This document shows, piece after piece, positions 5,565 through 15,608 of a stretch of DNA of 22,593 nucleotides. Below the pieces are notes generated by a model. The model did not search any database. It saw nothing but the letters and a program-made list of their open reading frames with translations, and was not told where the DNA came from. A program made the translations under genes and the position numbers. Where the stretch lies: the IMG/VR virus record IMGVR_UViG_3300042519_002406, positions 1 through 22,593 of that record; one strand, written 5' to 3'. Each line of letters opens with the position of its first letter. Positions within the stretch are counted from its first letter, which is position 1. Origin of the DNA: a virus.

Positions 5565-5768
5565 ATGAAATTAGTAGGTGAATTACACCCCATGCATAAA
5601 CTGACTGAAGAACAGATATTGCAAATTAGGGAATTATACAAAATAGGTCATAGAAATATTAATGTAATAGCTAGGAACTATAAAGTTTCACCTGCAAACA
5701 TTAAAAAAATAGTTACAAACGAAACGTGGAAACACATGGTTAAGTGGCCATATGAAAGTACAAGATAA
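5565..5768 (+). CDS. Solo helix-turn-helix protein (homing-endonuclease tail type)
   Basis: A 67-residue protein with one recognisable unit: GELHPMHKLTEEQILQIRELY, then IARNYKVSPANIKKIVTNETWKHM. The pattern G-E-x-H-P-x-x-K-L-T-E-E-Q … I-A-x-x-Y-x-V-S … T-W-K-H is familiar from the DNA-recognition tails of HNH homing endonucleases, but no nuclease domain is present. It is therefore either a relic of a homing gene or a small DNA-binding regulator. I prefer the ATG at 5565 to those at 5538 and 5547 because the -7-like box TATATTA lies at 5553-5559 and the conserved region begins here. It overlaps the first Mom-like gene by 17 bp, which suggests the two are co-expressed. Confidence 0.6.
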   Translation: MKLVGELHPMHKLTEEQILQIRELYKIGHRNINVIARNYKVSPANIKKIVTNETWKHMVKWPYESTR

Positions 5769-6519
5769 ACAATATTGTGATACTTCCAAGTTTAGTGTAA
5801 GGTTAATAGAAAAGTCGGTTGCAAAGAATATAATAGTAAAACATCATTATTCAAAACAATGGACAAAAGTTAGTTACGCATTAGGTTTGTTCTACGAAAA
5901 CGACACCGAACATAAATTCTTTGGTGGAGTAAATCACGAACTAATTGGTGTGATTTGTTATGGTGACCCAATTGGTAGACATTGTGGAGCATCTATAAGT
6001 GAGACATTAGATAGAACGGAAGTAATGGAGTTGGTAAGACTTTTTGTATTTGACGGATATGGTTGTAACATTGAAAGTTGGTTTGTCGGAAAATCTTTTG
6101 AATGGTTAAAAGAAAACGCAAAACAAATAAGAGCATTGATATCATACTCCGACCCTGTACAAGGACACAAAGGACAAATATATCAGGCAACAAATTGGTT
6201 ATATCAAGGAACAAGTATTAGACCTAACGACACATGGTCTTTTCGTTTTGAAGAAGGTGGTAAATGGATACATGGTAGAACTATGGCACCTTATTGGGGA
6301 ACAACCTCACCTTTCAAATTACAAGAACTTATTGATAAACCATTTTGGGTAAAGAGAGAACCAAAGAAACATAGGTACATCTACATTTTGGGTAAAGATA
6401 AAAAAGATAAAAAGGAATTGTTGAAAAATATAAAACATCCCCTATATTCATATCCAAAAACATTAGAGGAATATACCGAAGAAATATTAAAATTAGAACC
6501 AATTGAAAGAGTTAAATAA
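5752..6519 (+). CDS. Mom-like DNA-adenine modification protein, copy 1
   Basis: A 255-residue protein resembling the GNAT-like Mom family of phage Mu, which hypermodifies adenine in phage DNA to block host restriction. Visible family pattern: VKHHYS (H31, H32, Y33), a strand-turn LIGVICYGDPIG (64-75), ELVRLFVFD (93-101), NIESWFVGKSFEWL, then ISYSDPVQGHKGQIYQATNWLYQG (about 130-153), the block that in Mom proteins reads S-Y-A-D…G-H-x-G…Y-x-A-x-N. A C-terminal extension with KWIHGRTMAPYWG, a KHRYIYILG segment and a Lys-rich tail follows. It is adjacent to and clearly paralogous with the next gene. The family call comes from recalled motifs, not a search. Another GNAT-fold transfer activity is possible. 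The start overlaps the helix-turn-helix gene by 17 bp. Confidence 0.72.
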   Translation: MKVQDKQYCDTSKFSVRLIEKSVAKNIIVKHHYSKQWTKVSYALGLFYENDTEHKFFGGVNHELIGVICYGDPIGRHCGASISETLDRTEVMELVRLFVFDGYGCNIESWFVGKSFEWLKENAKQIRALISYSDPVQGHKGQIYQATNWLYQGTSIRPNDTWSFRFEEGGKWIHGRTMAPYWGTTSPFKLQELIDKPFWVKREPKKHRYIYILGKDKKDKKELLKNIKHPLYSYPKTLEEYTEEILKLEPIERVK

Positions 6520-7306
6520 GTTATATTGTGATACAAGTAGAGTATCAATTAGAGAAATAAGTTCTGCAGTAGCAAAAGAGATTATAGTTAAGAAACACTA
6601 TACACACGCATGGACGGCTTGTAGATATTCATTAGGAATATTTTACAAAACTGATGAGTCAAATGCATTGGGTGATAGTGATAAACTAATTGGATGTTTA
6701 GTGTATGGATTCCCAGTAGGTGCAAGAGCTGCAAACTCAGTTTCCGATTCAATTACAAAAGATAACATTTTAGAATTGACAAGATTGTATTGTGATGATG
6801 GATATGGTTCAAATATTGAGTCATTTGCATTAGGACAATCGTTTAAGTGGTTCAAAGAGAACGATAAAGCAATCAAAGTTTTAATATCATACGCAGATAA
6901 CGGACAAGAACATTTAGGAGGAATTTATCAGGCAACCAATTGGATTTATCAAGGAATGAATACTGATATTGCATTGATGCCAAATTACGGAATATCACTT
7001 TCAAAAGACCCCTACAAATGGATACATAGTAGAACTGTATTTTCAATGTGGGGTAGTGGCAATTTAGAACATCTTAGGAGAGAAATAGGTAAGCAAGGAT
7101 ATAAACAATTTTGGAGAAGGGAAGAACCACCAAAACATAGATACATACAGGTATTGGGTGCAGATAAAAAAGAAAAAAGAGAATTACTTAAAACTCTTAA
7201 ACACGACCCTAAAAATTATCCAAAAGATACAAGAGAATTTAATAAGGATATAGAAATTCATACTACAATTGCACCTGAAACAGAACTTGCAAGTAAGTTT
7301 TGGTAA
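6503..7306 (+). CDS. Mom-like DNA-adenine modification protein, copy 2
   Basis: A 267-residue paralogue of the preceding protein, colinear over its whole length: YCDTS at 8-12, VKKHYT (H32, Y33), LIGCLVYGFPVG, ELTRLYCDD (91-99), ISYADNGQEHLGGIYQATNW (about 128-147), KWIHSRTVFSMWG, and KHRYIQVLGADKKEKRELLK. The second copy keeps the H-Y and S-Y-A-D residues but has an extra segment after IYQG (MNTDIALMPNYG) and a Q-E-H in place of Q-G-H. The start is a TTG at 6503, chosen because no ATG or GTG exists before the conserved region and because it aligns codon for codon with the first copy's start. It overlaps copy 1 by 17 bp, the same overlap copy 1 has with its own upstream gene. The two probably have different partners or targets. 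Confidence 0.72.
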   Translation: MKELNKLYCDTSRVSIREISSAVAKEIIVKKHYTHAWTACRYSLGIFYKTDESNALGDSDKLIGCLVYGFPVGARAANSVSDSITKDNILELTRLYCDDGYGSNIESFALGQSFKWFKENDKAIKVLISYADNGQEHLGGIYQATNWIYQGMNTDIALMPNYGISLSKDPYKWIHSRTVFSMWGSGNLEHLRREIGKQGYKQFWRREEPPKHRYIQVLGADKKEKRELLKTLKHDPKNYPKDTREFNKDIEIHTTIAPETELASKFW

Positions 7307-7334: not shown

Positions 7335-8504
7335 ATGAACAAATTTTGGGAAACAGGGAAAGATACAACGACATTTGACTTTGAAGGTAATAAAAAAGAA
7401 TTAGTATCTAATTTAGATTATATATCCGAAATGTCGGTTGAAGAACAAACACTTTATAAAAAGTGGATAGAGTGGAATCAGGATTTGCATACCAGTATGA
7501 TGAAATTGCCTATAATACAATCTTATTATGATTTATTATGGACACCAACTGATTTGACAAATTATGATTTAACGATTAAAGAAATACAATCTTTAGAACC
7601 ATATGTTGAGATAGTAGAAGACCCGAAAGAGTCTGGCAAATGGTCTGATATTCGTAAGTTAATTCACACAATGGACTTTACTGCAAATCCAGGTCGTAAT
7701 GTTAAAATATATGTTAAAGATAAACTGACTGGAAAGATATTAGGACTAATAAGTTTAGGTAGTGATATTACAAGTCTAGGTGTTAGAGATGAATTTATAG
7801 GATGGACAAAAGATGATAAATTTGTAAATGGTAAATTAAATAATACCACCATTGCAACTACAATAGTTTCGGTTCAACCATTTGGATATAATATGTTAGG
7901 TGGTAAGTTAATTGCAACTATGACCACTTCTCCTGTTATTAGAGATTATTGGTATAAGAAGTATAATAATATATTAGTAGGGGTAGGAACGACTGCATTG
8001 TATGGTGCATCGTCAATGTACAATGGTATTCCACATTTTAAAACATTGGGTGAATCAAAAGGAATGATTAGTATTAAACCAGATGATAAGTATTACGATG
8101 TTTGGCATCAATACATTAAGGTAAAATATCCAGAGAAATACGAAAAGGCAATCAACTCAACAGGACCAAAACAAAATGTCCTTAATATGATTTTTAGAGA
8201 GTTGGATATTAAAACCACACACTATAATCATGGATTTAAAAGAGGTGTATATTTTGCACAAATGTATGAAAATGGTAATGCATTTTTATGTAGTAAAATA
8301 GATGAGACGGGATTAAAGTTGAACAATAGATTTACAAAAGGTGATGAATATAGTATCCAATGGTGGAAAGATAAAGCTGTAAAACGATATACCACATTGT
8401 ATAATGATAATAGAATTAAACCTGAAATATTATTTTATTCAGATGTGATTGGAATGACGTGGGAACAATGTAAAGAAAAATATTTAAAAGAAGTGGGGAG
8501 ATAA
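7335..8504 (+). CDS. DUF4338/DruA-like protein
   Basis: A 389-residue protein. The central region resembles DUF4338, the domain of DruA in the Druantia anti-phage system and of related phage proteins: a strand pair KIYVKDKLTGKILGLISLG (about 124-142), the diagnostic RDEFIGWT (151-158), then VSVQPFGYNMLGGKL, RDYWYKKYNNILVGVGTTALYG (about 208-227) and FKTLGESKG. The N-terminal ~110 residues are acidic and helical, and the C-terminal ~130 contain W- and Y-rich segments. I know of no proven activity for this domain. It follows the two Mom-like genes directly, separated only by a likely promoter, and precedes the polymerase by 2 bp. None of the other Druantia components (for example the large DruE helicase) is in the window, so a complete defence system is not supported. 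Confidence 0.6.
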   Translation: MNKFWETGKDTTTFDFEGNKKELVSNLDYISEMSVEEQTLYKKWIEWNQDLHTSMMKLPIIQSYYDLLWTPTDLTNYDLTIKEIQSLEPYVEIVEDPKESGKWSDIRKLIHTMDFTANPGRNVKIYVKDKLTGKILGLISLGSDITSLGVRDEFIGWTKDDKFVNGKLNNTTIATTIVSVQPFGYNMLGGKLIATMTTSPVIRDYWYKKYNNILVGVGTTALYGASSMYNGIPHFKTLGESKGMISIKPDDKYYDVWHQYIKVKYPEKYEKAINSTGPKQNVLNMIFRELDIKTTHYNHGFKRGVYFAQMYENGNAFLCSKIDETGLKLNNRFTKGDEYSIQWWKDKAVKRYTTLYNDNRIKPEILFYSDVIGMTWEQCKEKYLKEVGR

Positions 8505-8506
8505 TT

Positions 8507-11062
8507 ATGTATCAGAATATATTCTATGAGAGAACAAAAAACTTAATACATCTTTGGGATGATAAGAATGGATATCAAACAATGCCATATAGAAAGTATG
8601 CATATAAAAAAGACCCGTACGGACAATATCGTTCAATGTATGGTGACAAACTAACCCGTATTTCAAAATGGGATAAGGATGAAAGTGATGACCTATTTGA
8701 AAGTGATGTTCCAGAAACGACAAGGGTATTAGTAGACATATACGATAATGATATTCCATCAACAGGTCATAGAGTATTGACTTTTGACATTGAGGTTGAA
8801 ATGATATCAGGACTCCCAAACACAAAAGAAGCACAAAACGAAATTACTGCAATTGCTGCACATGATGGTGCAACCAAATTATATGATGTATTTGTATTAG
8901 ACAAAGATAAAATAGTAAAAAATAATGCCAAAAACTTTAACAAAGATGGGAGAGAAGTTACTCTACACATTTTCGATAACGAGAAAAATCTCTTACTTGC
9001 TTTCCTTAATTATTACCAGGAAGTTGACCCGACTATTCTTACAGGGTGGAATATAGATTTCTTTGATATTCCGTATTTGTATAACAGACTTAAAAATGTG
9101 TGTGGTGAGAGTCATGCAAAAAGATTGTCCAGAATAGGGCAGGCATATTGGTCACCATATAGAGAGAAGTTTAGTTTTGGTGGAGTATCCGTTTTGGATT
9201 ATATCAAATTATACAAAAACTACAACTATGGTTTGGAAAGTTCATACACACTTAATCACATTGCAACAAAAGAATTGGGTAGAGGTAAGGTTGAATATGA
9301 AGGAAGTTTGGATGATTTATTCGTAAACGATTTAGAAAAGTTTATTGAATATAACATTGTCGATGTGGACTTAGTAGTAGCAATGGATGAGAAGTTAAAA
9401 TTTATTGATTTATGTAGGGCGATATGTCACGCGGGATTTGTTCCATATGAGGATTACATTTATTCTTCAAAATTCTTAGAGGGAGCATGTTTGGCATACC
9501 TTAAAACTAAAAATATGGTTGCAACAAATAAACCAAAGGATAGAAATGAGAGAATGCAGGCATTGAGAGATAATAATGAGGAAAAGTTTATTGGTGCATA
9601 TGTAAAAGAACCCATCGTTGGAAAATACGATTGGATTTATGATTTGGATTTGACATCACTATACCCATCAATCATTATGACCTTAAATATCTCACCTGAG
9701 ACAAAGATTGGTAAAATTGAAAATTGGGATGCAGAGAAGTATATTAAAGGCGGAGAAACCGATTATAGATTGGTTGGAAAAGATGGTGAAACATATGATT
9801 ATACCAAACAAGAATTAGAAGAAGTTATTAAAGATAGTAATTTAGGTGTTGCATCAAATGGTGTATTATATTCACAAGACACTCCTGGTTTGATTGCAGA
9901 CATTTTGGACACATGGTTTAAACAAAGAGTTGAATTCCGTAAATTAGAAAAGAAATATGGAGAGGCCGGTGATACTGAAAAATATGAATTCTATGGTAAA
10001 AGACAATTGGTTCAAAAAATCTTATTGAACTCAATGTATGGTGTATTAGGCCTACCAGCATTCCGTTTCTATGATGTGGATAACGCAGAAGCAGTAACCC
10101 TAACAGGACAAATCGTAATTAAAAAGACGGCTGAAATGGCAAATAGAAAATATTGGAAAGAATTAGGAACAACCGATGACTACAATGTTTATATTGATAC
10201 GGATTCAATTTATATGATGGCAGAACCTTTGGTAAAACATAGATACCCAGACTATAAGACATTTGACGAAAAAAGAATGGCAGTTGAGGTAGACAATATT
10301 GCAACCGAAACACAAACATTCTTAAACTCATTTTACGACTTATTGGCAGAGAGATTTTTCTTTATTCCAAAAGACAAACATAGATTTGAGATTAAAAAAG
10401 AATTCATCAGTAAAGCTGGATTTTGGGTAGCAAAGAAAAGATATGCACAATGGATGATTTTGAAAAACGGAATACCTTGTGACAAATTAGATGTTAAAGG
10501 ATTGGATGTAGTTAGAAGTTCATTCCCCAAAGCATTCCAAAAGTTTATGTCTACAATGTTGAAAGATATTCTAATGGGTAAAGACCATGATTATATTGAT
10601 GATACATTATTAGCCTTTAAGAAAAGTTTACCAACACTTCCTGTTAATACAATTGCAAAAGGTGGAGCAATCAAAGAGTTGAGTAAATATGATGATGGTA
10701 GTTGGAAAACAGGTTCATCAATTGCAAACTTTGAAAAAGGAACACCTGCTCACGTTAAAGCTGGAATAGGATATAATCGATTATTGAAATTCTTTAACGC
10801 ACCTTTCAAAAATGAACCAATTAGAGATGGTGATAAAGTAAAATGGGTATATCTTAAAAATAACCCACTAGGTTTAGAAACTCTGGCATTCAAAGATTAT
10901 AATGACCCAAAAGAAATTATGGACTTTGTAGAACAATACATCGACAGAGATAAGATATTTGAGGCAGAATTAGAAAATAAATTAGATGACTTTTATAACG
11001 CATTGAAGTGGGATAAAGTCACCGCAGATACAAAAACAGCAAAGAAATTCTTCGCATTTTAA
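8507..11062 (+). CDS. Family B DNA polymerase (T4 gp43-like)
   Basis: The phage replicative polymerase, 851 residues, with complete exonuclease and polymerase domains. Exo I is FDIEVE (D94, E96), Exo II is GWNIDFFDIPYLYNR (about 178-192), and Exo III is YNIVDVDLV (about 283-291). Polymerase motif A is DLDLTSLYPSI (about 379-389), motif B is KILLNSMYGVLG (about 503-514), and motif C is YIDTDSIYM (about 562-570) with both catalytic aspartates. The C-terminal tail AKKFFAF has the hydrophobic/aromatic look of the clamp-binding tail in T4/RB69 polymerase. It is not split or interrupted. GGGGAG just before the ATG gives a fair Shine-Dalgarno. The sliding clamp lies one gene downstream. Confidence 0.96.
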   Translation: MYQNIFYERTKNLIHLWDDKNGYQTMPYRKYAYKKDPYGQYRSMYGDKLTRISKWDKDESDDLFESDVPETTRVLVDIYDNDIPSTGHRVLTFDIEVEMISGLPNTKEAQNEITAIAAHDGATKLYDVFVLDKDKIVKNNAKNFNKDGREVTLHIFDNEKNLLLAFLNYYQEVDPTILTGWNIDFFDIPYLYNRLKNVCGESHAKRLSRIGQAYWSPYREKFSFGGVSVLDYIKLYKNYNYGLESSYTLNHIATKELGRGKVEYEGSLDDLFVNDLEKFIEYNIVDVDLVVAMDEKLKFIDLCRAICHAGFVPYEDYIYSSKFLEGACLAYLKTKNMVATNKPKDRNERMQALRDNNEEKFIGAYVKEPIVGKYDWIYDLDLTSLYPSIIMTLNISPETKIGKIENWDAEKYIKGGETDYRLVGKDGETYDYTKQELEEVIKDSNLGVASNGVLYSQDTPGLIADILDTWFKQRVEFRKLEKKYGEAGDTEKYEFYGKRQLVQKILLNSMYGVLGLPAFRFYDVDNAEAVTLTGQIVIKKTAEMANRKYWKELGTTDDYNVYIDTDSIYMMAEPLVKHRYPDYKTFDEKRMAVEVDNIATETQTFLNSFYDLLAERFFFIPKDKHRFEIKKEFISKAGFWVAKKRYAQWMILKNGIPCDKLDVKGLDVVRSSFPKAFQKFMSTMLKDILMGKDHDYIDDTLLAFKKSLPTLPVNTIAKGGAIKELSKYDDGSWKTGSSIANFEKGTPAHVKAGIGYNRLLKFFNAPFKNEPIRDGDKVKWVYLKNNPLGLETLAFKDYNDPKEIMDFVEQYIDRDKIFEAELENKLDDFYNALKWDKVTADTKTAKKFFAF

Positions 11063-11063
11063 T

Positions 11064-11810
11064 ATGGATATTTTAAATTATTGGAAACCAGAAACATTTG
11101 ACATAGCTAGTTTCAAATGGCATTTAAAGGAACGTGTAAATAAAGAAATATTAGGAAATGGTTCTGATATAGGAAGTTGTTATTACACTTTTAATGAATT
11201 GGGATTTAGAGGAGACTCACCAAAAAAGAAAGGAACTAGAGTAATGTCTGTTGGTTGTTCACACACCGAAGGAATTGGTGTACACAATCATCAAACTTGG
11301 TCACATTATTTGACTAGAAGTATGAAATCTGCCGTTGATTTGAATTTAGGAATAAATGGTAGAAGTAATGATTATATAACTAGAGCAGTATTAACTTGGG
11401 TTGATTATTTAAATCCTGATATAATATTTGTAATGTATACATATCCACACAAACGTGAATATTATAGAGAAGATTCAAAAATAGAACCATATCATCCAAA
11501 ACCTTGGGGATATTTTAATGATGATTTAGAGGGCCGACTTAGGTGGTCTAATATGTTAAATGCATCTACAATTGAGGAGGATTATATAAATTGGTATAAA
11601 AATCATTTATTGATTACAAATTATTTGAAAGTAAAGGAAATACCATTTATTTGGAATGGCACATTTTTACAAACTGATTATGTTGATGAAAATAGATTTG
11701 ATGGTGATTATCCATATTTTGAAGAAAAAAATCAATATGCAACCGCACAACAAAATGAAATATATTCCAAAAAACTTTTAAATCATATTAAAAAAAATTT
11801 TGAAATTTAA
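11064..11810 (+). CDS. SGNH-hydrolase-like protein 1
   Basis: A 248-residue protein with the front half of an SGNH/GDSL hydrolase fold. YTFNELGFRGD (41-51) is the usual lead-in, block I is VGCSHTEG (S66 as nucleophile), and block II is LGINGRSND (about 95-103, with Gly and Asn for the oxyanion hole). A YP after strand 3 is seen at VMYTYPHKREY. I cannot find a convincing C-terminal D-x-x-H or H-P-N block, so it may be catalytically degenerate or use another histidine. The gene begins 1 bp after the polymerase stop, is very AT-rich and is followed by a likely promoter, consistent with insertion between polymerase and clamp. SGNH proteins often remove or add acyl groups on glycans. The substrate here is unknown. 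Confidence 0.65.
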   Translation: MDILNYWKPETFDIASFKWHLKERVNKEILGNGSDIGSCYYTFNELGFRGDSPKKKGTRVMSVGCSHTEGIGVHNHQTWSHYLTRSMKSAVDLNLGINGRSNDYITRAVLTWVDYLNPDIIFVMYTYPHKREYYREDSKIEPYHPKPWGYFNDDLEGRLRWSNMLNASTIEEDYINWYKNHLLITNYLKVKEIPFIWNGTFLQTDYVDENRFDGDYPYFEEKNQYATAQQNEIYSKKLLNHIKKNFEI

Positions 11811-11828
11811 AAAATTAATCGTATATTA
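11799..11828 (+). promoter_or_regulatory. Putative Bacteroidota-type promoter (TTTG-N19-TATATTA)
   Basis: TTTG at 11799-11802, overlapping the end of the preceding gene, and TATATTA at 11822-11828 with 19 bases between. The ATG of the sliding clamp lies 18 bases further, leaving room for a short A-rich leader (AAAACAAACATAAAAC). It would drive the clamp-dut-clamp-loader group. Confidence 0.45.
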
Positions 11829-11846
11829 GTAAAACAAACATAAAAC

Positions 11847-12560
11847 ATGAACAAAAACAATTTATTAAAATTCATTCAAAAGTATTCACTAGGTGGACTT
11901 ATTGAATCAGTAGCGTGGAACGCAGAAGGAACGAAATTATCAGTTAGATTTATTTCAGATGACAAAACATTATTAGGTGAGGTTGAGTACAACGCTTACA
12001 CATCAACGCCAATCAATGTAGGTATTTACACAACATCATTATTAAAAAATATGATTGGTGTATTGGATAACGATTTAACATTGAAAGTTGATAAATCAGG
12101 TGATAAATCAGTATCATTAAAATTCGTATCAGACGAAACTGAAACATCTTATCAATTAGCAGACTTGGGAGTTATTCCACCTGTACCAGATTTGAAAACA
12201 TTACCTAATTTTGGTATTTCAATTGATATGGCATCTAATATGATTGATAAGTTTATCAAAGCAAAAGGTGCATTAACTGACATAGATACTTTTACAATCT
12301 TTACCGAAGGTAGTGATTTAAAAATGGCAATTGGTTATTCTGCAATCTCAACAAATAGAGTTACATTTACTGTACAAAAAGATTATGCAGAAACAGTAAA
12401 ACCTATTTCCTTCTCAGCAAAGTATTTGAAAGAAATCTTAACAGCAAATAAAGAAGCAACATCAGCAAAATTAAAAGTTTCAACGGATGGTTTATCAAAT
12501 GTTGAATTCCAAATCGATGACTTTATTTGTAAGTATTATTTAGTAGAAATCTCAAATTAA
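11847..12560 (+). CDS. Sliding clamp (T4 gp45-like)
   Basis: A 237-residue DNA sliding clamp candidate, close to the 228 of T4 gp45. It has the two-domain repeated strand pattern of gp45/PCNA clamps: an opening helix LLKFIQKYS, acidic strands (SVRFISDDKTLLGEV), LLKNMIGVLDNDLTLKV, a linker near ADLGVIPPVPDLKTLP (about 106-120), then a second domain ending in SAKYLKEILTANK and FICKYYLVEISN. The terminal Y-Y-L-V strand fits the last strand of gp45. The identity is supported mainly by position between the polymerase and the two clamp-loader genes and by length, since clamps diverge fast. The start follows an A-rich leader typical of Bacteroidota. Confidence 0.82.
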   Translation: MNKNNLLKFIQKYSLGGLIESVAWNAEGTKLSVRFISDDKTLLGEVEYNAYTSTPINVGIYTTSLLKNMIGVLDNDLTLKVDKSGDKSVSLKFVSDETETSYQLADLGVIPPVPDLKTLPNFGISIDMASNMIDKFIKAKGALTDIDTFTIFTEGSDLKMAIGYSAISTNRVTFTVQKDYAETVKPISFSAKYLKEILTANKEATSAKLKVSTDGLSNVEFQIDDFICKYYLVEISN

Positions 12561-12564
12561 TAAA

Positions 12565-12879
12565 ATGAAAGAACAATTAGAATTATTCCCACAAGAGGAA
12601 TTACAACAAGACGCGGGTAGTATTAATGTACCCGAAGCACAACCAATTAAAGACGCAGAGTGGTGTTTTCAATTTTTTAACAATGAACCAATTGTATTTG
12701 CATGGTCAAATGAAGGTGAAGAACCTGCTCCATTGGTTTTGCAATTACAACCTGTGGAAAGTGAGGGGTTAAATTTCCAACAAAATGGAATGACTTTTAG
12801 AGTATTCCCAAGAGAAATTAGTGAAGAAACAAAATTAGAAAGAAAAAAACAGAATGAAAGTCAAAATAAAGAAGCTTAG
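12565..12879 (+). CDS. Small acidic protein with a clamp-binding-like QLELF motif
   Basis: A 104-residue acidic protein I do not recognise. Residues 4-8 are QLELF, one substitution from the bacterial clamp-binding pentapeptide QL(S/D)LF. The gene starts 4 bp after the sliding clamp, so a clamp partner is a reasonable inference. The remainder contains one compact hydrophobic region (WCFQFFNNEPIVFAW, then PLVLQLQP and MTFRVFPREI), suggesting a small beta domain, with Gln/Glu-rich flanks and a charged Lys/Glu tail. The 3' end overlaps dut by 26 bp. It could equally be an unrelated phage early protein, and the motif could be chance in a Gln/Glu/Leu-rich N terminus. Confidence 0.65.
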   Translation: MKEQLELFPQEELQQDAGSINVPEAQPIKDAEWCFQFFNNEPIVFAWSNEGEEPAPLVLQLQPVESEGLNFQQNGMTFRVFPREISEETKLERKKQNESQNKEA

Positions 12880-13270
12880 TCCGGAAGCAGTTATACCCAC
12901 TTACGCAAAAGAAGGTGATGCCGGTATGGATTTGGTTATCACCGACATTAAGGGAGAAACGGAGTGGGATATCAGTTATGGATATGGTATCTCAATGGAA
13001 ATTCCTAAAGGTTTTATGGGACTTGTTTTTCCTCGTTCATCAATAAGAAAATACGATTTGGCATTAACAAATTGTGTAGGTGTAATTGATAGTGGATATA
13101 GAGGAGAAATTCAAGCAACATTTAAGAAAACAGGTGGAGCAGTATACAAAATAGGAGATAGAGGTGCACAGATTATTATCATGCCACATCCAATTGTTGA
13201 TTTCGTAGAAGTAGAAGAATTAACAAACACTGAAAGAGGTGAAGGCGGATTCGGTTCAACTGGAAAATAA
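12854..13270 (+). CDS. dut: dUTPase (dUTP diphosphatase), trimeric type
   Basis: Hydrolyses dUTP to dUMP, keeping uracil out of phage DNA and supplying dTMP synthesis. At 138 residues it has all five trimeric dUTPase motifs in order: AGMDL (23-27), PRSSI (about 60-64), the GVIDSGYRGEI uracil-binding loop (about 75-85), GDRGAQIII (about 101-109), and the C-terminal RGEGGFGSTG arm (about 128-137) that closes over the phosphates. The third-motif aspartate and tyrosine are intact, so it should be active. The ATG at 12854 lies inside the preceding gene (26-bp overlap), and the alignment begins immediately with MKVKIKKLSPEA, supporting this start. Confidence 0.95.
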   Translation: MKVKIKKLSPEAVIPTYAKEGDAGMDLVITDIKGETEWDISYGYGISMEIPKGFMGLVFPRSSIRKYDLALTNCVGVIDSGYRGEIQATFKKTGGAVYKIGDRGAQIIIMPHPIVDFVEVEELTNTERGEGGFGSTGK

Positions 13271-13271
13271 T

Positions 13272-13976
13272 ATGAAGAAAATATATTTTGATGGTTGTTC
13301 GTATACATTTGGCCAAAGTTTAGAACTATATTGTAATCCATTGGGCATATTTGAACATAATAGAATGAGTAAATATGAATTTACAAATGAAGATATCTTA
13401 TTTTTAAAAAAAAATAGATATAGTGCTATTGTTTCCAAATATTTTGAATTATTAGAAACAAATAATTCCAAAAATGGCAAATCCAATGGCCGTATTTTAT
13501 TTGATTTAAATCAAAATGATATAAATAATTACGAATATGTTATTATTCAGTTAACACATTTTGGTAGATATTTTACAAAAAAAATGCACGAGTGGCAAAG
13601 TCATAAGGAAACTATTGATTTTATGTTAAATAATAATTTTTTAACTCAAGATGAAATAGATTACACCATAGAAAATATTGAAAAAATACAATTAAATTAT
13701 TTTTTAGAATTGGAAAACATTTTTAAAGATTTTCCAAATAAACTTAAAATTATATTTCATAGTAATGAATGGGAAAACATCTTATCAAACGAACAAATTG
13801 AAAAATATGGAATATCAATTGATGGTGAATATATGATTAGAAGATGGGCAGAAAAAAATAATATGTTTATAAATCAACAACCACAATTTAAAGACACCAA
13901 ATTTGCATCACATGATACTCATTTGTGTATAGAAGGACATAAAATATTAGCAGAATCAATAATAAAACAATTATGA
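13272..13976 (+). CDS. SGNH-hydrolase-like protein 2
   Basis: A 234-residue SGNH/GDSL-fold protein. Block I is FDGCSYTFGQ (S10), block II is NGKSNGRI (N72), and a C-terminal catalytic-type block reads HDTHLCIEGHK (D215, H217), followed by a terminal helix. I chose ATG 13272, one base after the dut stop. An in-frame GTG at 13239 would overlap dut and add residues not belonging to the fold. The 3' end overlaps the clamp-loader start by 4 bp (ATGA). Base composition is markedly AT-rich, with Asn/Lys/Ile/Phe codons dominating, compared with dut and the clamp loader on either side, so it looks inserted without breaking the operon. The substrate is unknown. Glycan esterase/acyltransferase-like activity is the family's general theme. 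Confidence 0.7.
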   Translation: MKKIYFDGCSYTFGQSLELYCNPLGIFEHNRMSKYEFTNEDILFLKKNRYSAIVSKYFELLETNNSKNGKSNGRILFDLNQNDINNYEYVIIQLTHFGRYFTKKMHEWQSHKETIDFMLNNNFLTQDEIDYTIENIEKIQLNYFLELENIFKDFPNKLKIIFHSNEWENILSNEQIEKYGISIDGEYMIRRWAEKNNMFINQQPQFKDTKFASHDTHLCIEGHKILAESIIKQL

Positions 13977-14920
13977 GTTTTTTCGCAAACGATATAAACA
14001 AAAGAGAACATAGTTTGTGGGTGGAGAAATACCGTCCACAAACTCTTGCTGACTATGTTGGTAATGAAACCATCAAAGAAACAATTCAGCAGTATTTAGA
14101 TGCAAACGACATACCACATTTATTGTTGTATGGAAAAGCAGGTACGGGTAAGACCACACTTGCTAAACTAATCGTAAACACAATCAAATGTGACTTTATG
14201 ATTATCAACGCATCGGATGAAAACAATGTGGATACTGTTAGAACAAAAGTTAAGAACTTCGCATCATCGGTTGGGTTTGCAGGTTTCAAAGTAATCATCT
14301 TAGATGAGTTTGATTATATGACACCGGGAGCACAAGCGATTTTGAGAAACTTAATGGAAACATTCTCTAAGCATTGTAGGTTTATATTAACCTGCAATTA
14401 CATTGAGAAAATCATTGACCCTATCCAAAGTAGATGTCAGTCTTTCGCAATAACACCTCCGACTAAAAAGGATGTAGCAGTTCAGGTAGCAAAGATATTA
14501 GATGCAGAAAAGATTAAGTATGAACCAAAGAATATGGCTGATGTGATTAATTCATACTACCCAGATATTAGAAGGATACTTAATACTTGTCAATTACAAT
14601 CTGCAAAAGGAGAATTAAAAGTAGACCATAGAGTAATGGTTGAAGCAAACTTTGCAACTAAGCTTATTGAATTGTTAAAGGAATCCGATGACAAACGAAA
14701 TATGTTTATGAAAATTAGACAGGCAGTAGCAGACAACAAATTAAACGACTATTCGGAAATGTATACAATGCTATACGATAAAGTGGATGAATACGCAACA
14801 GGAAATGTAGCAAATGTGATTTTAACTATTGCAGATGGTCTTTCAAAAGATGCATTAGTAGTAGATAAAGAAATCGTATTTATGTCTACAATTATACAAA
14901 TATTAAACATAATAAAATAA
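13973..14920 (+). CDS. Clamp loader large subunit (T4 gp44 / RFC small-subunit type)
   Basis: An AAA+ ATPase of 315 residues that opens and loads the sliding clamp at primer ends. It opens with the RFC-box WVEKYRPQTLADYVG (16-30). Walker A is GKAGTGKTT (54-62), Walker B is IILDEFDYM with D111-E112, sensor 1 is LTCNY (139-143), and the SRC arginine-finger motif is SRCQSF (153-158). PDIRRILNTCQ is the sensor 2 region. The C-terminal collar domain is complete. Length matches T4 gp44 (319). It overlaps the SGNH gene by 4 bp and shares its last base with the next start (TAATG). Confidence 0.95.
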   Translation: MSFFANDINKREHSLWVEKYRPQTLADYVGNETIKETIQQYLDANDIPHLLLYGKAGTGKTTLAKLIVNTIKCDFMIINASDENNVDTVRTKVKNFASSVGFAGFKVIILDEFDYMTPGAQAILRNLMETFSKHCRFILTCNYIEKIIDPIQSRCQSFAITPPTKKDVAVQVAKILDAEKIKYEPKNMADVINSYYPDIRRILNTCQLQSAKGELKVDHRVMVEANFATKLIELLKESDDKRNMFMKIRQAVADNKLNDYSEMYTMLYDKVDEYATGNVANVILTIADGLSKDALVVDKEIVFMSTIIQILNIIK

Positions 14921-15159
14921 TGGAACAACAACAACAATTACCACCGAATTTTAATTTAAATGATGCAAGAGATATGGATTGTGAATGTGGTGGAAAGATA
15001 TTCTTACCAGCATATAGATTCAAAAAAATTAGTAGATTATTAACAGGTGCACCAAAAGATTCGGTTATGCCTATTGAATTGTATGTATGTGCATCATGTG
15101 GAAAAGCATTGAATGAATTATTACCACAAGAATTGCAAGAAACAAAAATCATAGAATAA
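14920..15159 (+). CDS. Small zinc-ribbon protein
   Basis: A 79-residue protein with two cysteine knuckles, C21-x-C23 (CECGGKIF) and C57-x2-C60 (CASCGKAL), expected to bind one zinc. The layout, a KISRLLTG helix between the knuckles and PIELYVCASCG before the second, resembles small zinc-ribbon proteins found beside replication genes of T4-like phages, but I cannot name the family. The N terminus is Gln-rich from a CAA repeat (14925-14936). It is locked between the two clamp-loader genes with one-base TAATG overlaps on both sides, so its stoichiometry is probably tied to theirs. A role as nucleic-acid-binding accessory is a guess. Confidence 0.75.
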   Translation: MEQQQQLPPNFNLNDARDMDCECGGKIFLPAYRFKKISRLLTGAPKDSVMPIELYVCASCGKALNELLPQELQETKIIE

Positions 15160-15608
15160 TGGCACAAAAGTTATTTGACCATATTAACGCAATAACTACC
15201 ATTCAAGACCCAAAGTATTTTGATAAACTTGGTGATGAGGATTTGAAAACTTGGAGTAATTTTATGATTAATAGATTTTTATCAATGAAACCTGAATGGG
15301 TTGAGTTGATTGCATCTTTATTACCTTTAACACAAACTTTACAACCAAAGGAAATGTATAAGTTGTATATTAGTGTTATTCCAAAGGGTAAATACTTTTT
15401 GAAATATATTAAAGGAAAATCCGAAGATAAATACGAACAATTCATAGTAGACCTTTTAAAGAAAGAATACGATTGTTCGGAAAACCAAGCAATAGAATAT
15501 TTAGAAGTTCTTTATTCAACAAGAGAAGGTAGAGAATATATGAAATATGTCTCTGAAAAATATGGTATTGATAAAAAGCAAATAACTAAATTGAAACTTA
15601 AAATATAA
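15159..15608 (+). CDS. Clamp loader small subunit (T4 gp62-like)
   Basis: A 149-residue protein matching the general form of phage gp62, the non-ATPase clamp-loader subunit that bridges gp44 and the clamp. The diagnostic stretch is FMINRFLSMKPEWVELIASL (about 34-53), recalling the F-x-x-N-R-x-L-S pattern of gp62 homologues. After it come a YKLYISVIPKGKYFLKYIKG helix pair and a C-terminal segment (YDCSENQAIEYLEVL) that resembles the gp62 tail. It is shorter than T4 gp62 (187) but near the size of cyanophage versions. Its position two genes after the gp44 homologue supports the call. The start overlaps the previous stop by one base. Confidence 0.75.
   Translation: MAQKLFDHINAITTIQDPKYFDKLGDEDLKTWSNFMINRFLSMKPEWVELIASLLPLTQTLQPKEMYKLYISVIPKGKYFLKYIKGKSEDKYEQFIVDLLKKEYDCSENQAIEYLEVLYSTREGREYMKYVSEKYGIDKKQITKLKLKI

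Follow-up and report, generated by a model that had tools for sequence, protein, structure and literature searches.

Among the motifs that bind the bacterial β sliding clamp, QLxLF and QLxLxF have the highest affinity, the motif of Hda is located in a disordered N-terminus, and expression of MGPRQLDLF inhibits E. coli growth, according to the accessible part of a review (PMC11139829). The ligands of the T4 clamp are described, in the available part of another source (PMC2988020), as having "highly similar", interchangeable tails. Here, we analysed a viral DNA stretch (hereafter, the window) of 22,593 nt, positions 1 to 22,593 of IMG/VR record IMGVR_UViG_3300042519_002406, in which a small gene next to a phage sliding clamp encodes a bacterial-type motif, QLELF.

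The clamp locus and its orphan gene

On its plus strand, the window contains a T4-like replisome operon: a family B DNA polymerase (8507–11062), a GDSL-like ORF, a sliding clamp (11847–12560), the gene for a 104-aa acidic orphan protein (12565–12879), a dUTPase (12854–13270, overlapping the 3′ end of the orphan gene by 26 bp), another ORF, a gp44-type clamp-loader ATPase (13973–14920), a 79-aa ORF, and a gp62-type clamp-loader subunit (15159–15608). A preliminary description had placed QLELF at residues 4–8 of the acidic protein and the start of its gene 4 bp after the clamp gene; coordinates and residue counts agree. The clamp ORF ends with a TAA stop at 12560, which is followed by TAAA and the ATG at 12565, and direct counting gives 20 D/E versus 9 K/R in the protein. 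The clamp matches PHROG 12062 (E 2.2e-08) and an NCBIfam clamp model (1.5e-05), and a model of a relative's clamp, though of low confidence (pLDDT 48), matches PCNA and T4 gp45 (3u61_F, 1.2e-07). We conclude that the clamp in the window is of the PCNA/gp45 kind, not of the bacterial β kind. The closest isolated phage found was Microcystis phage Mel-JY01, whose polymerase and clamp are 49% and 28% identical, respectively.

Other genes of the window include two adjoining Mom-family DNA-modification genes (5752–6519 and 6503–7306; PF25680, E about 1e-42 each), a pair that is kept in several relatives. Directly 3′ of the pair and 5′ of the polymerase lies a gene for a DruA-family protein (7335–8504; PF14236, E 2.7e-21). 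DruA takes its name from the Druantia defence system, and its placement in a phage replication region is therefore odd. A 5′–3′ exonuclease (35–568) ends, like its homologues, in a conserved DWLQSTF.H[IL].KF sequence, which could be a further clamp ligand.

The 104-aa protein consists of the pentameric QLELF tag (12574–12588, plus strand), a variable, acidic, Q-rich linker with many indels among relatives (residues 9–29; 12589–12651, plus strand), and a conserved core without a known fold (residues 30–90; 12652–12834, plus strand). In a structural model with a mean pLDDT of 76, residues 1–19 score below 50, while blocks of residues 21–100 score 77–94; the core is predicted to form four short strands followed by a C-terminal helix. 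The motif is thus predicted to lie accessible in a part of the protein that is disordered or flexible. For the core fold, PDB matches did not go below E 5, VIA-align gave no match with Z ≥ 2 among 88 chains, and the only BFVD matches were two uncharacterised viral proteins. Comparison of the protein with PHROGs, Pfam, and NCBIfam profiles yielded no families at E up to 1, and the best Pfam match among 76 aligned members was a family of unknown function (E 0.03). No homologues were found in isolated phages, including Mel-JY01, or, by profile, in GTDB genomes.

A small protein with a clamp-like motif brings to mind T4 gp33, which is similar in size (112 residues, according to the available part of PMC2988020), and the orphan could be a late-transcription coactivator that joins the clamp to RNA polymerase. 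We consider this very unlikely. The T4 motifs are C-terminal and resemble the polymerase tail, while QLELF is N-terminal and different; the predicted strands and helix of the core lack a PDB match, as the protein lacks a sequence family match; and in relatives, the tag is present on MazG (see below). A late sigma factor that ends in a clamp tail was neither annotated in two stretches of Mel-JY01 nor evident by tail pattern.

Conservation and loss of the motif

To collect relatives, we scanned viral contigs with the full-length protein, the clamp, three more distant queries (one of them a whole protein), and, to keep the motif from biasing the result, the core by itself; each scan retained no more than its best 80 loci. 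The scans returned at least 437 loci, at least 434 core matches, and at least 112 distinct proteins, two of which were cut at the N-terminus, leaving 110 with an intact one. The clamp-binding proposal had been tied beforehand to conservation of the motif in homologues, and QLxLF is present in 93 of these 110 distinct relatives among the matches listed. The third position is occupied by E in 68 cases, D in 18, S in four, N in two, and K in one, a spectrum that fits bacterial tolerance and bears out the likeness to the bacterial β-clamp motif pointed out earlier. The clamp-binding pattern Q-aliphatic-x-[L/M]-[F/L], or Q-aliphatic-x-[L/M]-x-[F/L], matches QLELF as well as QLKLDF, found in a MazG carrier.

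Residue shuffling of nine long contigs of the clade gives 0.02–0.12 chance occurrences of QL[SDE]LF per proteome; in the actual proteomes, the motif occurs once in each of the seven contigs with a motif-keeping core protein, and nowhere else. We conclude that the QLELF motif is not a product of chance. According to codon parsimony on a clamp-loader tree, conducted with 81 motif-bearing genes, none of the codons for Q, L, L, and F changed non-synonymously, and the F codon changed synonymously 17 times; this count is conditional on the presence of the motif. The most variable flanking codons of the same genes underwent 26–32 non-synonymous changes. With all 90 genes included, the five motif positions accumulated 5, 4, 15, 6, and 9 non-synonymous changes, versus 425 over 21 linker codons (about 20 each). 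The motif therefore appears to be under purifying selection in the 81 genes, which were chosen for having it. It is also kept when its spacing to the start codon shifts (MAKKKEFEQLELF).

The N-terminus might instead be conserved for some other protein–protein contact or for expression, the likeness to a clamp motif being coincidental. Cassette-like exchange of the start context and frequent loss of the motif would agree with such an explanation, and clamp binding by the tag is itself a prediction. We nevertheless regard coincidence as improbable: Q, L, L, and F are kept while the third residue varies as it does in clamp motifs, the motif persists at a changed distance from the start codon, and it recurs, once in hexameric form, on unrelated carriers.

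The 17 relatives without the motif have lost it through substitution or deletion, or have a different N-terminus. Presence and absence are distributed near-randomly on the tree: the 107 sequences show 13 changes, where shuffling gives 15.2 on average and never fewer than 11. The whole tagged gene is missing from three of 77 clamp loci (L366, L379, and L383), where the clamp is directly followed by dUTPase. Since both the motif and the gene can be absent, the tagged gene is dispensable. A degenerate motif was considered for divergent members, but comparison with L404, L407, and L410, which have QLNLF or QLSLF and the same downstream segment, showed that at least L414 and L469 lack a stretch instead. 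ORF scans of contigs G012 and G013 found no replacement tag for the lost motif. An internal QLPLF in G012 was dismissed as compensation, because the protein around it appears to be folded and the matches of that protein do not retain it. Alternative N-terminal modules were seen in L193, L176, and L220 (MTDxQTKEMLExTLGxEI...) and in L204 and L254 (QLE[HQ]DF...); they are common to separate tree branches, as if exchanged by recombination.

The tag on other carriers

A DNA scan with the pattern ATG-xxx-EQL[ED]LF revealed 92 distinct ORFs in 118 loci among the matches listed. The core family accounts for 52 of the 92; among the other 40, several begin at internal start codons or are very short. 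Some of these non-core ORFs resemble Dam-type methylase or HNH proteins by eye only, an impression that carries no weight. In two loci, L588 and L611, the tag directly follows the clamp and continues into a MazG-like domain (PF03819, E 1.3e-4; PF12643, E 5.6e-6), and neither the core nor dUTPase was found in the clamp-to-loader interval. Alignment of L611 with the core-family locus L016 revealed 58 matches in 60 upstream bases and 47 in the 48 bases from the start codon onward, followed by divergence. As judged from this alignment, the tag DNA is common to both sides of the switch from core to MazG carrier.

A second MazG family (PRA-PH/MazG), from another clade, begins with MSEQLELF in G022 and G023, and its homologue in G028 begins with MSKQLKLDF, the hexameric form. 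Contig G028, which has a PCNA-type clamp, encodes QLELF on a 230-aa fragment in addition to its QLKLDF MazG. In G021 (L550), a homologue of the DruA-family ORF of the window starts with MREQLELF, and a protein of ca. 236 aa and of unknown kind starts with MLEQLELF / MLEQLELFQVLN in L541, L569, L596, L601, and L603, one of these loci belonging to G028.

Tagged proteins were counted per contig set as QLxL(x)F at true ORF starts, with ORFs cut by contig ends admitted. One was found in 11 of 14 cases, two in G028, and none in G012 (180 kb) and G013 (238 kb). One ORF each in G014, G013, G017, and Flavobacterium phage immuto was left out as short or antisense-looking. Several matches to a looser pattern were set aside as not being QLxLF: N-terminal ones in G018 and G009, of which QMPMGF is in the 79-aa protein and QIKMKL in one that is glycosyltransferase-like, as well as two matches in short ORFs of Mel-JY01. 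The same was done with one QIDLF at the N-terminus of a 399-aa protein in immuto and, in Tenacibaculum phage PTm1, with one N-terminal match in a 54-aa ORF and two C-terminal matches. QL[SDENK]LF is absent from the called ORFs of the complete genomes of Mel-JY01 (261 ORFs), immuto (230), PTm1 (323), and Enterococcus phage Entf1 (101).

These observations suggest that the tag is a portable module on differing carriers and that the tag itself may do the work. The protein had been proposed to be a phage-encoded modulator, a term that is too narrow, since the tag moves between unrelated proteins and was found on core, MazG-like, DruA-like, and ca. 236-aa proteins. Searches of the literature, subscription papers and preprints aside, found no report on QLxLF-tagged MazG or on the orphan family.

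Candidate partners of the tag and relation to known systems

The host of the clade was considered in view of gene-start and promoter signals. Bacteroidota are generally without Shine–Dalgarno sites and use TTTG-type promoters. Shine–Dalgarno sites in the clade are close to or little above their shuffled numbers (12 of 192 versus 13.1, and 28 of 286 versus 20.3), which fits a Bacteroidota host; in Mel-JY01, they are enriched (50 of 134 versus 19.1). A Bacteroidota-like promoter candidate, TTTG-N19-TATATTAG, is located just 5′ of the clamp gene (11799–11829, plus strand). This signal is weak: the window has six matches versus 2.1 expected, and three of 100 shuffles reach six. One tagged MazG is 82% identical to a Flavobacterium phage MazG. 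Taken together, the lack of Shine–Dalgarno enrichment, the promoter-like site, and the MazG match indicate that the host is likely a member of the Bacteroidota. In G012–G018, TATATTTATA-like 8-mers recur 5′ of genes that are preceded by a gap of at least 35 bp; these may be a phage promoter.

We propose that the N-terminus acts as a portable tag for clamp binding, in which a motif of the bacterial β-clamp type (QLxLF, or QLxLxF in one relative) is presented on a disordered arm and would dock any fused protein onto a sliding clamp. The carrier in the window is a small orphan fold whose gene lies within the replisome operon; relatives have a MazG-like pyrophosphohydrolase, a DruA-like protein, or an unknown protein as the carrier. 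That the tag binds a clamp of some kind seems quite probable to us. As for the partner, we lean slightly, and tentatively, toward host β. The tag would then occupy DnaN during takeover, displacing host polymerases and repair proteins; phage replication would meanwhile rely on the phage's PCNA-type clamp, which the phage polymerase would contact with its FFxF tail. In the window, this tail is KKFFAF (11042–11059, plus strand), presumably a ligand of the phage clamp by inference from T4/RB69 (PMC3012046, in the part that was accessible), and all complete polymerase C-termini inspected end in KKFF[ASDT]F or QKFFAF. The contrast between QLELF and the polymerase tail, drawn in the preliminary description, holds for all of these C-termini. 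Host β is favoured because the motif forms are bacterial and unlike that tail.

The form of the motif speaks for the earlier preference for host β, yet every record in which tagged MazG was found also has a PCNA-type clamp, as would be expected if the phage clamp were the partner. Motif loss in 17 of 110 relatives, gene loss in three of 77 clamp loci, and the lack of a tagged protein in G012 and G013 also speak against host β. Since one Flavobacterium and one Tenacibaculum phage, both complete and without such a clamp, lack the tag, β-targeting is not general in Bacteroidota phages.

It is also possible, though in our judgement somewhat less likely, that the phage's PCNA/gp45-type clamp is where the tag docks, so that a MazG-like enzyme, dUTPase (via the core), or the orphan core would be brought to the replication fork. 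In most loci, the tagged gene directly follows the clamp gene within the replisome operon. Where MazG co-occurs with a PCNA-type clamp (five records), it is always tagged, and in the four searched records that lack such a clamp, it is always untagged; the untagged MazG of a Flavobacterium phage, 82% identical over residues 10–168, starts with MITDPKVPFIDEVEEF. Tagged MazG in L588 and L611 supplants the core plus dUTPase, which is a hint that the core works with dUTPase. A precedent for an N-terminal contact is T4 RNase H, which reaches gp45 through an N-terminal peptide, according to the accessible part of PMC3012046. On the other hand, the motif is a bacterial pentamer or hexamer, being neither a PIP box nor an FFxF tail; the tagged gene persists where the clamp gene is located elsewhere and is only about 54–57% identical; and a clamp of this kind occurs in Mel-JY01, which lacks the tag. 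Modelling of a clamp read-through fusion (nine read-through and 12 clamp rows) left the motif at a pLDDT of about 28–29, in a model that was poor as a whole (mean 48). A PCNA-type clamp was not seen in 11 of 16 tagged records tested, which may be fragments. In nine relatives (L038, L041, L044, L060, L148, L166, L221, L480, and L493), no clamp gene directly precedes the tagged gene, which stays behind the polymerase or the GDSL-like ORF; the motif is lost in L493, and several of the nine have a more divergent clamp elsewhere in the contig. Should the tag bind the phage clamp, phage PCNA-type clamps would read a bacterial-style motif and tether nucleotide-sanitising enzymes to the fork.

Under the preferred reading, with host β as the partner, the tag would serve a strategy of host takeover: its five-residue motif would fill the pocket that is targeted by peptide inhibitors, in phages with a clamp of their own. 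A stronger version, which we hold to be rather unlikely as a whole, is that the tag and not the carrier is the active principle: one protein, rarely two, mostly from the replisome operon, would be armed with a swappable host-β motif, so that the bacterial clamp is poisoned or commandeered, and carriers would be recombined just behind the tag.

The tag resembles the clamp-binding motifs of bacterial proteins (QL(S/D)LF and QLxLxF, for example in Hda) in its letters, the tolerance of its third position, its placement in a disordered N-terminus, and its acidic flanks. It differs from them in that its carrier is a phage protein without a known fold, whose gene adjoins that of a PCNA-type clamp, and in that its binding is predicted. 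Staphylococcus phage Twort Gp168, a β-clamp inhibitor, is likewise a phage protein that acts on the host clamp, as the tagged protein would; by its description in the accessible part of PMC11139829, which is all that is compared here, Gp168 binds the DNA channel of the clamp and not the motif pocket. In T4-type phages, the clamp ligands (gp43, gp55, and gp33) have C-terminal, hydrophobic–acidic tails, unlike the N-terminal QLELF, and it is the polymerase that ends in KKFFAF here. The principle, a short linear motif as the tether between a protein and a phage clamp with the same fold, would be shared, but the form here is bacterial and unlike the phage's own polymerase tail. Phage MazG-like and PRA-PH pyrophosphohydrolases have the same kind of N-terminal tag in five related records; the carrier in the window is not MazG, and no tag is present on the four MazG homologues examined from phages that lack a PCNA-type clamp.
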